Source: a virus
DNA: 64,000 nt
Strand: one strand, 5' to 3'
IMG/VR virus record: IMGVR_UViG_3300023179_000058
Coordinates: 1 to 64,000 of that record
The first letter of the stretch is position 1. Each line of letters opens with the position of its first letter. A program made the translations under genes and the position numbers. This document shows, piece after piece, positions 21,410 through 49,403 of the stretch. Under the pieces are notes generated by a model. That model was given only the letters and a program-made list of their open reading frames with translations. It made no database searches and was not told the origin of the DNA.

Positions 21410-21438
21410 TTGACAAGTCCTTGGACTTAGCGTAGAAT
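21410..21438 (+). promoter_or_regulatory. Second sigma70 promoter in the tRNA array
   Basis: TTGACA (21410-21415) and TAGAAT (21433-21438) are 17 bases apart, immediately before the boxB/boxA-like leader. A degenerate GTTG box (GTTGTAAAAATACAGC) lies at 21384-21399. Confidence 0.75.
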
Positions 21439-21508: not shown

Positions 21509-21584
21509 GCACCTATCGTCTAACGGTTAGGACGGCGCCCTTTCAAGGCGCAAACGGCGGGTTCGATTCCCCCTAGGTGTACCA
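21509..21584 (+). tRNA. tRNA-Glu(TTC)
   Basis: Acceptor GCACCTA/TAGGTGT, anticodon arm GCGCC-CTTTCAA-GGCGC, T-loop TTCGATT, encoded CCA. Its 3' end is also the start of the long terminal helix of the next structured RNA. Confidence 0.95.
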
Positions 21585-21800
21585 TATTAAAACGCATTGG
21601 GTTACCAAGCCAGTAGGTACCTTAGTAGAGAATTATTCCTAGTGACGGCTAGGCTCTGCTAAGACTACATGAAGCCTCCCGAGGGTGCTGGAACAACTTG
21701 GCAAGTAATGTGGTTGATAGACAAGTCCGTGGACGGCACGGTAGGGCAGGTTCAAAACTGTTTCTTCTATCAAACATCCTAATGCGTTTTAATATGGTAC
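21579..21800 (+). ncRNA. Structured spacer RNA R1 closed by a 20-bp perfect helix
   Basis: Bases 21579-21598 pair perfectly with 21781-21800. Inside are TTAGTAGAG/CTCTGCTAA enclosing a CCTAG-tgacgg-CTAGG hairpin, CCAAG/CTTGG, and TTGATAG/CTATCAA enclosing a GTCC/GGAC hairpin. This nested architecture without an ORF indicates a stable RNA of about 220 nt. The 5' arm includes the ACCA end of tRNA-Glu, so folding and tRNA maturation should compete. I do not recognise the family. Confidence 0.7.
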
Positions 21801-21950
21801 CATTTGTTAAGTGTTATCAAGGTATCGTGTATGGACGCATACACTATTCGGGTCAAAGCGGCCGGCGACTGATCCTGATATAACTGCTATCGGCTGTGGC
21901 ACGGAAGCACCGGACGCCTAAATTTAGCGGATAACACTTAACAAATGGTA
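21798..21950 (+). ncRNA. Structured spacer RNA R2 closed by a 21-bp perfect helix
   Basis: Bases 21798-21818 pair perfectly with 21930-21950, two bases before tRNA-Cys. Inside are a GTGTATG-gacg-CATACAC hairpin and weaker helices around 21865-21895. R1 and R2 are back to back and share the TAC at 21798-21800. No ORF or known RNA family is recognised. Confidence 0.65.
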
Positions 21951-21952
21951 AT

Positions 21953-22030
21953 GTGAGGGTGCCAGAGCGGTCGAATGGCGGAGCCTGCAAAACTCTTGTA
22001 TCGTGGGTTCGAATCCCACTCCTCACTCCA
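21953..22030 (+). tRNA. tRNA-Cys(GCA)
   Basis: Acceptor GTGAGGG/TCCTCAC, anticodon loop CTGCAAA, T-arm GTGGG-TTCGAAT-CCCAC, and U73 before the encoded CCA, as expected for tRNA-Cys. The last pair of the anticodon stem is C-A. Confidence 0.88.
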
Positions 22031-22040
22031 GAAGAATATT

Positions 22041-22129
22041 GGGTTCTGCCCCCTACGGCGGACTGTAAATCCGTTGGCATTGTTTTGTAGGGAAGTTGCC
22101 TCGTGGAGCGTTACCATCAGGACCCACCA
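22041..22129 (+). tRNA. tRNA-Tyr(GTA)-like RNA lacking a D-arm
   Basis: Acceptor GGGTTCT/AGGACCC with encoded ACCA, and a good anticodon arm GCGGA-CTGTAAA-TCCGT (anticodon GTA 22065-22067), give a tRNA of 89 nt, the usual class II length. Only ten bases separate the acceptor from the anticodon stem, so no D-arm can form. Instead CCCTAC (22051) can pair with GTAGGG (22087). The T-loop reads AGCGTTA, not TTCRANY. It is the only Tyr candidate in the array. Confidence 0.55.
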
Positions 22130-22251
22130 TAGTCACACCATCAAGGTGTGTCAATCCAGCAAAAAGTGCTGGCGTGTATAGCGGTGCATCAACGATGTAC
22201 TTTCGGTATCCGCGTAAGAGATACGGCTAAAGTTCGTAATGCCAAATATTT
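22130..22251 (+). ncRNA. Hairpin-rich spacer RNA R4
   Basis: The 122-base spacer between the Tyr-like RNA and tRNA-Ala has no ORF. It contains CACACC/GGTGTG (22134-22150), CCAGC/GCTGG (22156-22172), CATC/GATG and an ACTTT...GTATC/GATAC...AAAGT arm. AATGCCAA at 22238-22245 can pair with TTGGCATT at 22074-22081 inside the Tyr-like RNA, so the two may fold together. Confidence 0.45.
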
Positions 22252-22652: not shown

Positions 22653-22657
22653 ATTTT

Positions 22658-22712
22658 AGGATACTTTCAGCAATCAAATAACTTTACTGGTAATAAAGCA
22701 AAAGCGTATCCT
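22658..22712 (+). ncRNA. Small structured RNA A of a four-member family
   Basis: Terminal stem AGGATAC (22658-22664)/GTATCCT (22706-22712) is followed on the 5' side by TTTCAGCAATC. An inner CTTTA/TAAAG hairpin and an A-rich GCAAAAGC before the 3' strand complete it, then CTGTTATTTTA. The same architecture recurs at 26257, 26499 and 26631. Confidence 0.55.
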
Positions 22713-22722
22713 GTTATTTTAT

Positions 22723-22797: not shown

Positions 22798-22965
22798 TTC
22801 GTGAGAGTCCGAAAGCGAGGTGCTTGACTAGCGACCTGACTGCCGAGGGAATACCACTCTCTATCGCCATCGATTTTACGGATTAGTCACCGACAGATGG
22901 TTTCAGATAGTAGATACCGCTTATCTAGGTATTAAACGGATATGGCAGTACTCTCACTAATGGCT
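22793..22965 (+). ncRNA. Structured spacer RNA R5 closed by a 16-bp helix
   Basis: Bases 22793-22808 pair with 22950-22965 with one mismatch. ACTGCC/GGCAGT, AATACC/GGTATT and AGATA-ccgct-TATCT helices lie inside. The helix runs from the 3' end of tRNA-Asn to two bases before tRNA-Met, so the whole spacer is one folded unit. No ORF seen. Confidence 0.6.
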
Positions 22966-22967
22966 AA

Positions 22968-26688: not shown

Positions 26689-26704
26689 GTTGAAAGGAAA
26701 TATC

Positions 26705-28126
26705 ATGACTACTTTTGTAGATGCAGTTGTAAACCAAGAAGCCCGTACCGAGAATGGTATGAAGGCTCGCAAGTCTATCGCCAACGCGGTTGTAGATTTG
26801 TTCTATAACGCTGGCGCAAGCCGCGGTAAGAACATTGTGCCAGCATTCTCTGCCGCAATGGCTGAGAATCGTGACCTTGCATTGCGTGTTGCCGCATGGC
26901 TCCGTGATGCGCGAGGTGGTGCTGGTGAGCGTCAATTGTTCCGCGATATTCTAGTGTACCTAGAAAAGAACGATACTGAAGCCGCAAAGGCTTTACTACG
27001 CAAGGTCCCAGAATTGGGGCGTTGGGATGACCTGTTTGTCTTTAATTCTAAAGACATGAAGAATGAGGCATACACTTTGCTTGGCGATGCATTGCGTTCG
27101 CGTAATGGACTTGCCGCTAAGTGGACACCTCGTCAAGGTCCTATCGCAGTTGAAATCCGTAACTTCTTTGGCATGTCTCCAAAGTTCTATCGTAAGTCCC
27201 TAGTCGAATTGACTAAGGTTGTAGAATCTCAGATGTGTGCTAAAGATTGGGACAACATCAACTTTAGCCATGTGCCTTCTGTTGCATCGGCTCGTTATAA
27301 GAAAGCATTCAATCGCAATACTGAAAAGTATGCGGAGTATGTGCAGTCTCTTGTAAAGGGTGACAATCCAGAAGTGAAGGTAAATGCATCCGTTGCATAT
27401 CCATACGATGTGCTTAAAGGTCGCATCGGACACTATGGCGTTACTTTTGACAAGACCGAATTGGACTTGATTCAAAAGCAATGGGAAGCATTGCCTAACT
27501 ATGTTGGCGATGCAAACATCCTCCCACTGGTTGATGTATCTGGCTCTATGTCTTGTCCAGCAGGAAAGAACACAAAACTTTCTTGCCTTGAAGTAGCAGT
27601 CTCTCTGGGATTGTATCTTGCAGACAAGAACACCGGAAAGTTCAAGGACACCTTCTTGACTTTCTCTAACAAGCCAGAGTTGTTGAATCTGAAAGGTAAC
27701 ATCAACCAAAAGATTGATCAAATGATCAAATCTAAGTGGGAGATGAACACCAACCTACATGCCGCATTCAAGAAAATTCTTGATGTTGCAGTAAAGGGTG
27801 GTGTGCCTCAAGAAGAAATGCCAGCAATGGTATTGATTTTGTCTGATATGCAGTTTGATCAATGCATGACCCATGATGATTCTGCAATTCAGATGATTCA
27901 ACGCAAGTACAAAGATGCAGGTTATGAAATGCCACAAGTGGTATTTTGGAACCTAAACGCATCGTACGGCAACGCGCCAGTCAAATTTGACAAAGGCGGC
28001 ACCGCTCTGGTGTCTGGCTTCTCGCCAGCGATTGTGAAGCCACTCTTGTCGGGAGACATTGATAACTTCACACCAGTATCGATCATGCTGAAAACCATCA
28101 TGGATGATCGCTACAAAGTTCTTTAA
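26705..28126 (+). CDS. Ro60/TROVE-related (DUF2828-type) RNA-binding vWA protein
   Basis: The 473-residue product has a helical-repeat N-terminal region with RDARGGAGERQLFRDIL near residues 67-83, a signature of Ro60-like DUF2828 proteins. A C-terminal von Willebrand A domain has an intact MIDAS: DVSGS (277-281), Thr349 in WEMNT and Asp391 in LSDMQFD. Ro60 family proteins form rings that bind misfolded RNAs and Y RNAs. AAAGGAAA precedes ATG 26705. The gene is preceded by three structured RNA elements and surrounded by tRNAs, which suggests RNA binding or quality control (inference). Confidence 0.8.
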   Translation: MTTFVDAVVNQEARTENGMKARKSIANAVVDLFYNAGASRGKNIVPAFSAAMAENRDLALRVAAWLRDARGGAGERQLFRDILVYLEKNDTEAAKALLRKVPELGRWDDLFVFNSKDMKNEAYTLLGDALRSRNGLAAKWTPRQGPIAVEIRNFFGMSPKFYRKSLVELTKVVESQMCAKDWDNINFSHVPSVASARYKKAFNRNTEKYAEYVQSLVKGDNPEVKVNASVAYPYDVLKGRIGHYGVTFDKTELDLIQKQWEALPNYVGDANILPLVDVSGSMSCPAGKNTKLSCLEVAVSLGLYLADKNTGKFKDTFLTFSNKPELLNLKGNINQKIDQMIKSKWEMNTNLHAAFKKILDVAVKGGVPQEEMPAMVLILSDMQFDQCMTHDDSAIQMIQRKYKDAGYEMPQVVFWNLNASYGNAPVKFDKGGTALVSGFSPAIVKPLLSGDIDNFTPVSIMLKTIMDDRYKVL

Positions 28127-47910: not shown

Positions 47911-48716
47911 TGATCGTTCTCTACGGGCATGGCTATGTTGCAGATTACATAGCCAAAGAAATGCATAAGCAATCATTTAAGTTTGTTCGCTTAACGCATC
48001 ATGCATTAGTACCTAAAGATGCAAAGTTTATTGTCAATGCCGCAGGCTTTACGGGCAACCCTAATGTAGATGCTTGTGAGGTTTTGCGTGATGAGTGCGT
48101 AGACGGAAACATTCGATGGCCACTTAAACTTGAAAGAATCGCAAGCCAAATTTCTGATATTCCAATTCTACACATTACTAGTGGTTGTGTGTATACTGGC
48201 TATGATAAAGAATGGACAGAAAATGATCCGCCAAACTTTACATTCAACAATGCTTCTTTCTATAGCGCATGTAAAGCATTGGCACAAGAACTACTATCGC
48301 CATATATGAACAAGTCATATTTGTTCCGAATTCGTATGCCATTTGGTCCGCACATTCACCACAAGAATCTATTGACAAAATATGAAAGATATGCTAAACT
48401 TGTAGACTATGAGAACAGCGTAACACAGGTTGAAGATTTAGCAAAATGTGTTTGTCATTTCATCATGATAAAACCAACATATGGAATTTATAATGTTTGT
48501 AATCCTGGCAGTACTAGCACGAAAGAAATTGTTGCAGAAATGGGGCTCCATAAAGAATGGATGACTCATGATGATTTTGCTAAGGCAGTAGTTGCGCCGA
48601 GAAGTAATTGTGTGCTAAATACTAAGAAGTTGGAAAGTGTGTATGCTATGCGGTATGCTGACCAAGCGGTAAGCGAAACAGTACGCACATACTTATCACA
48701 CAATCTTTACTTATGA
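47910..48716 (+). CDS. NAD(P)-dependent sugar epimerase/reductase (RmlD-like)
   Basis: The 268-residue extended SDR has YGHGYVADYI (nucleotide-binding loop), FIVNAAGFTG, ITSGCVYTG and YSACKALAQ (catalytic YxxxK near residue 114). RmlD-type enzymes reduce 4-keto sugars. It is separated from the deoxysugar operon at 52 kb by the tmRNA/iscU locus. Its last codons overlap the 5' end of the tmRNA acceptor piece. Confidence 0.82.
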   Translation: MIVLYGHGYVADYIAKEMHKQSFKFVRLTHHALVPKDAKFIVNAAGFTGNPNVDACEVLRDECVDGNIRWPLKLERIASQISDIPILHITSGCVYTGYDKEWTENDPPNFTFNNASFYSACKALAQELLSPYMNKSYLFRIRMPFGPHIHHKNLLTKYERYAKLVDYENSVTQVEDLAKCVCHFIMIKPTYGIYNVCNPGSTSTKEIVAEMGLHKEWMTHDDFAKAVVAPRSNCVLNTKKLESVYAMRYADQAVSETVRTYLSHNLYL

Positions 48717-48776
48717 CTGTATGAAGCAAAGAGAAAAGTGTTCTGGACGCGGGTTCGACTCCCGCCTGGTCCACCA
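48715..48776 (+). ncRNA. ssrA: tmRNA acceptor piece (permuted ssrA, 3' half)
   Basis: GGACGCGGG-TTCGACT-CCCGC is the conserved tmRNA T-arm, followed by acceptor strand CTGGTCC (48766-48772) and ACCA. CTGGTCC pairs with GGGCCAG at 49182-49188. GACTGT (48715-48720) pairs with ACAGTC (49224-49229) and TGTT with AACA, forming the tmRNA P2 helix. The true 5' end may lie slightly inside the upstream gene. Confidence 0.9.
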
Positions 48777-48793
48777 TAAGGAGATTTGTAAAC

Positions 48794-49180
48794 ATGGCAT
48801 ATTCCGATAAAGTAGTTGACCACTATGAAAACCCAAGAAATGTTGGATCGTTTGACAAGAACGATACTGATGTTGGTACTGGCATGGTTGGTGCTCCTGC
48901 TTGCGGAGATGTTATGAAACTACAGATAAAGGTTAATCATAAGACAGGTATTATTGAGGACGCCCGTTTTAAGACATACGGATGCGGGTCGGCAATCGCA
49001 TCAAGTTCTCTTGTCACAGAATGGGTCAAGGGCAAGACTCTTGACGAGGCGGCAGGTATTAAAAATTCTGAGATTGCAGAAGAACTCGCCCTCCCTCCAG
49101 TCAAAATACACTGTTCAATACTTGCTGAAGATGCGATTAAGTCAGCAGTAGAAGATTACCGAAAGAAAATCTCTTTATGA
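48794..49180 (+). CDS. iscU: IscU-like Fe-S cluster scaffold, nested in the tmRNA gene
   Basis: The 128-residue, full-length IscU has all ligands: Cys37, Asp39, Cys64, His106 and Cys107, with LPPVK (100-104) for chaperone binding. IscU assembles 2Fe-2S clusters with a cysteine desulfurase; no IscS is seen here, so it would use the host enzyme. TAAGGAG lies between the tmRNA CCA and the ATG, and the stop is one base before the tmRNA coding piece. NrdA/B, an RfbH-like dehydrase and possibly other phage proteins could need Fe-S or iron supply. Confidence 0.92.
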   Translation: MAYSDKVVDHYENPRNVGSFDKNDTDVGTGMVGAPACGDVMKLQIKVNHKTGIIEDARFKTYGCGSAIASSSLVTEWVKGKTLDEAAGIKNSEIAEELALPPVKIHCSILAEDAIKSAVEDYRKKISL

Positions 49181-49181
49181 T

Positions 49182-49403
49182 GGGCCAGTCATGGTTTCGA
49201 CAGGGCAAAGAGTAACAGAGTAGACAGTCCGGTAGATGACGACCGTAAATCGCATAAATAAAGTAAACGCAAACGATGAAAAGTTCGCATTGGCAGCCTA
49301 AACGCTGACTAGGGTTTCGGTGAGTTTCCTCGTAACAGAATAACTCACCACTAATTTTGGATAGTTGTAGTCGGCGGCAAAACCCGTTAGGCAGACCTAA
49401 CTT
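49182..49403 (+). ncRNA. ssrA: tmRNA coding piece (permuted ssrA, 5' half)
   Basis: GGGCCAG then CATGGTTTCGACAGGG is the tmRNA 5' domain. The tag frame GCA...TAA at 49269-49301 encodes ANDEKFALAA, preceded by the usual AAATAAAGTAAAC. Downstream helices GGTGAGTT/AACTCACC, GCTGACTA/TAGTCGGC and GTTAGG/CCTAAC fit tmRNA pseudoknots. No T-arm or CCA occurs downstream, so the 3' half is the piece at 48715. Rescues stalled ribosomes. Confidence 0.92.

Follow-up and report, generated by a model that had tools for sequence, protein, structure and literature searches.

Organisation of the R2 locus

The window analysed here, a stretch of 64,000 nucleotides, is part of an 89,765-base virus record that carries 26 tRNA genes at 21.3–28.7 kb. 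Within this array, all on the plus strand, tRNA-Glu (21509–21584) and tRNA-Cys (21953–22030), both called by ARAGORN, flank two RNAs with long helices, R1 (21579–21800) and R2 (21798–21950). A predicted sigma-70-type promoter on the same strand (TTGACA-17-TAGAAT, 21410–21438; 11 of 12 matches in a consensus scan) precedes the series tRNA-Glu–R1–R2–tRNA-Cys, and no intrinsic terminator, that is, a short G+C-rich hairpin followed by a T run, was found within 21798–21950. The arms of the R1 helix lie at 21579–21601 and 21778–21800, and the GTACCA at the 3′ end of tRNA-Glu forms the first part of its 5′ arm.

R2 is a unit of about 150 nt. As proposed in a preliminary description of this DNA, it is enclosed by a perfect 21-bp helix, P1, in which TACCATTTGTTAAGTGTTATC (21798–21818) pairs with GATAACACTTAACAAATGGTA (21930–21950) at 100% of positions. 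The helix starts where that of R1 ends, the two overlapping by 3 nt, and finishes two bases before tRNA-Cys. The same description gave R1 and R2 stems of equal length, which holds only approximately: the count is right for the 21 pairs of R2, but R1 has 23 pairs, one of them G-U. The 111 nt that separate the P1 arms contain, from 5′ to 3′, a conserved single-stranded segment, AAGGTATC (21819–21826; alignments A3 and A4); the P2 hairpin GTGTATG-GACG-CATACAC (21827–21844), the inner hairpin described earlier, whose arms (21827–21833 and 21838–21844) and GACG loop are evident in the sequence and recur in the predicted fold; the P3 hairpin GGGTCA...TGATCC (21850–21875); the conserved strand CTGATATAACTGC (21875–21887), partly fixed by our search pattern; and the P4 hairpin (21898–21918; GGC/GCC with an inner CGG/CCG). 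The predicted fold has an energy of −61.3 kcal/mol versus −41.1 ± 4.2 for dinucleotide shuffles, 4.8 standard deviations more stable, with none of 200 shuffles equally good.

Other RNA-like elements were seen in the window. At 22039–22132 lies a tRNA-Tyr-like stretch (CGGACTGTAAATCCG, CCACCA end) that lacks a normal T arm and received no ARAGORN call. A short spacer RNA at 22653–22722, with AGGATAC...GTATCCT around TTTCAGCAATCAAATAACTTTACT, is conserved in dozens of loci in both sets of tRNA arrays examined below. A permuted two-piece tmRNA with the tag ANDEKFALAA, located at 48682–49392, may hint at the host group.

R2 belongs to a covarying RNA family

A search for the exact 21-nt arm of R2 returned no matches, because the stem sequence varies. 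We therefore searched IMG/VR with a pattern built from the inner motif alone, GGTAYCGYNNNNGGACGCNNNNRCTAN{22,48}CTGANAYAACYG, which contains no P1 base. At least 119 stretches of uncultivated phage DNA matched, from records of up to 345 kb. Among the matches listed, a closing helix of 17–27 bp was present in 78 of 80 distinct copies, the two exceptions sitting near contig ends and probably being cut off, and a tRNA gene lay within 3 kb in 77 of the 80. By blastn R2 was found in none of 50,697 records of phage isolates, and the exact core pattern, a strict one that divergent copies could escape, found none in a one-per-species set of bacterial and archaeal genomes. Nor did any Rfam 15 family, including GOLLD, ROOL, YrlA and tmRNA, match at or above its gathering score over 21798–21950, so that assignment to a known RNA family was rejected.

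For an alignment of 58 copies RNAalifold predicted 38 pairs, of which 35 showed double-sided changes. In a cleaner set of 51 copies, 97.0% of cells pair, as against 71.6% after shuffling and at most 42% in slid controls; the covariation score is 0.662 versus 0.202 (shuffled) and at most 0.134 (slid), and 34 of 39 pairs are altered on both sides. The individual hairpins follow suit: P2 (alignment helix 2) is 99.4% paired, both of its arms covary and 5 of its 7 pairs have both-side changes; P3 (alignment helix 3) is 98% paired, with such changes in 5 of 6 pairs; and P4 (alignment helix 6) is 100% paired, with changes in all three modelled pairs. The preliminary description had staked its reading on whether compensatory changes maintain the stem in related phages; they are abundant, with 19 of 19 modelled closing-helix pairs changed double-sidedly. 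The bases named in the search pattern, among them GGTAYC in the AAGGTATC region, are invariant by construction, but the search cannot account for the covariation, since the pattern leaves out P1, P3, P4 and the greater part of the P2 arms.

The copies thus share a P2–P3–P4 core with conserved GGTAYCG...GGACGC...CTGANAYAAC and a closing helix of about 20 bp backed by compensatory change. P1 also keeps some primary sequence, an AG at columns 14–15 of alignment A4 being nearly invariant. The resulting covariance model matches the R2 unit with 163 bits, the window sequence itself being among the training sequences. R2 is apparently the type of a widespread, undescribed phage RNA family.

Closing-helix length is fixed and counts in the tRNA end

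To profile P1 we fixed its register from the core side. Pairing is 97–100% at most of bp 1–19, about 80% at bp 20–21 and about one third at bp 22. The helix accepts G-U pairs at its two ends and almost none between bp 7 and 17, and within bp 1–20 departures to G-U outnumber those to A-C by about 4 to 1. The usual minimal substrate of bacterial RNase III is 20–22 bp, two helical turns; P1 has this length and is free of helix-breaking mismatches in its middle.

Helices of this type are common in tRNA arrays. In two array sets, spacers of 60–420 nt contain a helix of 15 bp or longer in 64 of 373 and 104 of 448 cases, whereas the shuffled spacers contain one in 0 of 746 and 0 of 896 (pooled, 168/821 versus 0/1,642). 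Together with the shuffled folds of R2, this bears out the earlier claim that its helix is not due to chance. Helix lengths peak at 19–22 bp in the two sets, and the helices mostly end 0–7 nt ahead of the following tRNA.

The length is held at about 20 bp by counting in the tRNA. Helices that abut a tRNA have on average 16.0 bp outside it and gain another 4–5 bp with the tRNA's own (N)ACCA end, whereas in detached helices the spacer itself gives 21.6 bp in R2 and 19.4 bp in other cores. The outside length differs between abutting and detached helices with p = 6e-10 for R2 and 7e-10 for other cores, while the total length differs little, being about 20 versus 21.6 bp for R2 (p = 0.01) and 19.7 versus 19.4 bp for other cores (p = 0.43); all these p values are optimistic, as related sequences are not independent, and the counts cover helices no shorter than 15 bp. 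ACCA is part of the mature tRNA, so the pairs that it forms can exist only before processing; this is our main argument for P1 working in the precursor. The helix length of about 20 bp is thus gauged on the precursor before its processing, which suggests that P1 is a processing helix. The outer ACCA pairs might also be a by-product of end-to-end gene packing.

A model for R2 processing and its alternatives

On balance we lean towards the view that R2 is a structured noncoding RNA excised from a tRNA precursor by way of the length-measured P1, and that its core then acts in trans. R2, with a P1 of 20–21 bp around P2, P3 and P4, would be transcribed along with the phage tRNAs and excised from their precursor, where P1 would serve as the processing helix and, wherever the RNA abuts a tRNA, would count the upstream 3′ ACCA within its roughly 20 bp. 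Cleavage would most likely be by RNase III, separating R2 from the RNAs on either side and shortening the stem on the core; the enzyme would have to come from the host, since neither this record nor 22 R2-bearing records yielded an RNase III gene. RNase P would free the next tRNA, and by cutting at the 5′ end of tRNA-Cys it would leave R2 with a 2-nt tail. Judging by its strong conservation, the released core would most likely have a trans-acting role during infection. The AG conserved in P1 counts against a pure double-stranded RNA substrate, which would not need it.

A less likely reading, though one that deserves weight, is that P1 is never cut and persists on the mature RNA as a terminal clamp against exonucleases, the ends being made by RNase P and the tRNA 3′-end enzymes. 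Many stable RNAs have closed terminal helices, and the spacer helices do start and stop almost exactly at tRNA ends, as a clamp made in this way would. A clamp, however, does not need a fixed length, and its outer 4–5 bp would be lost from the mature RNA together with the tRNA ACCA that they use, yet the total stays at about 20 bp. We consider it improbable that the helix mainly serves the upstream tRNA, masking its ACCA and timing or protecting the 3′ maturation of tRNA-Glu, with the core secondary. That tRNA-Glu is the usual upstream neighbour and that ACCA is paired in most helices abutting a tRNA would fit such a role, but 34 of 59 distinct R2 arm pairs have no tRNA directly upstream, and the core of R2 shows high conservation and covariation.

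Apparently exchangeable cores at a fixed slot

The first-round relatives were 80 loci fetched by an open reading frame (ORF) inside the tRNA array, 26690–28126. In their arrays many spacers are enclosed by long helices that differ in sequence, and a handful of the spacers hold the R2 inner motif. In the relatives L011, L050, L212, L213, L214 and L217 the closing helices of R1 measure 22–23 bp. In the window and in L213 the slot 3′ of R1 is occupied by R2, so that the tandem R1–R2 placement described earlier recurs in another phage contig; in the other five loci it is occupied by a different core, class A. The slot after tRNA-Glu holds R2 in 27 cases, class A in 7, R1 in 5 and other cores in 14. 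R2 and class A often have the outer arm TACCATTTGTTT in common, while their cores and inner arms differ. These observations suggest that cores are swapped at a fixed slot, and the same type of helix, about 20 bp long, around many unrelated spacer cores supports the repeated architectural role that had been attributed to R1 and R2.

Such exchange, and the outer arm common to R2 and class A, would also be expected if the P1 arms were the inverted repeats of a mobile DNA cassette and not an RNA helix. We regard this as very unlikely, for the departures in P1 favour G-U over A-C, P2–P4 covary as RNA and the fixed helix length includes tRNA bases.

Among phage isolates, Synechococcus phage BUCT-ZZ01, whose host is Synechococcus elongatus PCC 7942, has two tandem helices of this kind at L091:1641–1872, Aeromonas phage AhP_Mru1 has one long spacer helix and Vibrio phage Thalassa one shorter; the spacer-helix test found none in KVP40, T4, S13 and DLP6. 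At about 180.9–182.0 kb, KVP40 (L092) has leader-trailer helices of 19–21 bp around tRNA-like RNAs with long insertions. These RNAs are annotated as pseudo-tRNAs, and three of the insertions carry a hairpin with a CTGAYAAG loop. TTTCAGCAAACAATTACT, which resembles the TTTCAGCAATCAAATAACTTTACT of the short spacer RNA at 22653–22722, is present in KVP40 spacers. A further class of long-helix spacers, with a T-arm mimic (e.g. CACAGGTTCGAAACTGTG), was seen at L066:2936–3115, L078:1760–1929, L085:5799–5990 and L090:6555–6741.

Candidate protein partners

The ORF at 26690–28126 carries Pfam DUF7788 and DUF2828, and 668 phage records contain relatives. In a Foldseek search its predicted structure, with a mean pLDDT of 74.5, retrieved the entries 9kop (TROVE domain), 9l5y (Ro60 of Thermus phage phiLo) and 2nvo (Rsr), with E values of 2.6e-7 to 2.6e-6. 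The presence of this Ro60-like ORF in the array, the use of the protein to fetch the first-round loci and a nearby GTCCGAAAGC...GCTTGACTAGC motif raised the idea that R2 is a Y-RNA-like partner of the protein. The motif, reminiscent of the Ro60 site of Y RNAs, lies in a structured-looking spacer at 22798–22967 with the ends GTGAGAGT/ACTCTCAC and is not conserved in relatives.

In Y RNAs and YrlA, as in R2, the two ends form a closing helix, but R2 has no YrlA match above the cut-off and does not co-occur with Ro60-like proteins: such a protein is found in 1 of 30 R2-bearing records and Pfam TROVE in 0 of 22, and the R2 covariance model, which finds R2 in the window, detected it in 0 of 15 large records bearing the Ro60-like protein, a set with no positive control inside. 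A Y-RNA-like partnership is thus scarcely credible, and R2 as a required Ro60 partner was rejected, although R2 could bind the Ro60-like protein in vitro. We likewise discarded a PF04308 RNase H-like protein as partner, which is not specific to R2 (16 of 22 R2-positive versus 12 of 15 R2-negative records).

Comparison with known RNAs

The species 1 and species 2 RNAs of T4 (rnaC and rnaD; 139 and 119 nt by annotation) are stable RNAs at the end of the phage tRNA array, for which we know of no function. They have their tRNA-array location and kind in common with R2, but the fold differs: their predicted folds lack a closing helix of about 20 bp and neither matches the R2 covariance model, so that homology was rejected. 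GOLLD and ROOL are structured phage RNAs near tRNA islands with no known function (PMC12286853). They are ornate and about 660–800 nt long, as against about 150 nt for R2, and R2 has no Rfam match either at the gathering score or with an E value of 5 or less.

P1 itself recalls the leader-trailer helices of bacterial rRNA precursors, the RNase III stalks, in which a long perfect helix likewise brackets a stable RNA within a polycistronic precursor. Unlike the stalks, P1 brackets small phage RNAs between tRNAs and takes in a tRNA 3′ end, and cleavage in its case is something that we infer. The T4 RNAs and GOLLD/ROOL are the nearest kinds to R2, which adds to them a length-measured helix that borrows the tRNA end.

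Phage tRNA arrays are usually read just for their tRNAs, yet RNAs bracketed by long helices fill about a fifth of the 60–420-nt spacers in the two array sets. A fixed helix length that includes the tRNA CCA end makes a clear prediction on precursor processing, and the R2 covariance model offers a handle on hosts, transcripts and targets. We tentatively suggest, as a possibility that goes well beyond R2 itself, that the tRNA operons of large phages may be a cassette deck, in which unrelated small RNAs, their cores swappable at a fixed slot, would share an ACCA-counting excision helix of about 20 bp, be released by one processing step and act on the host.
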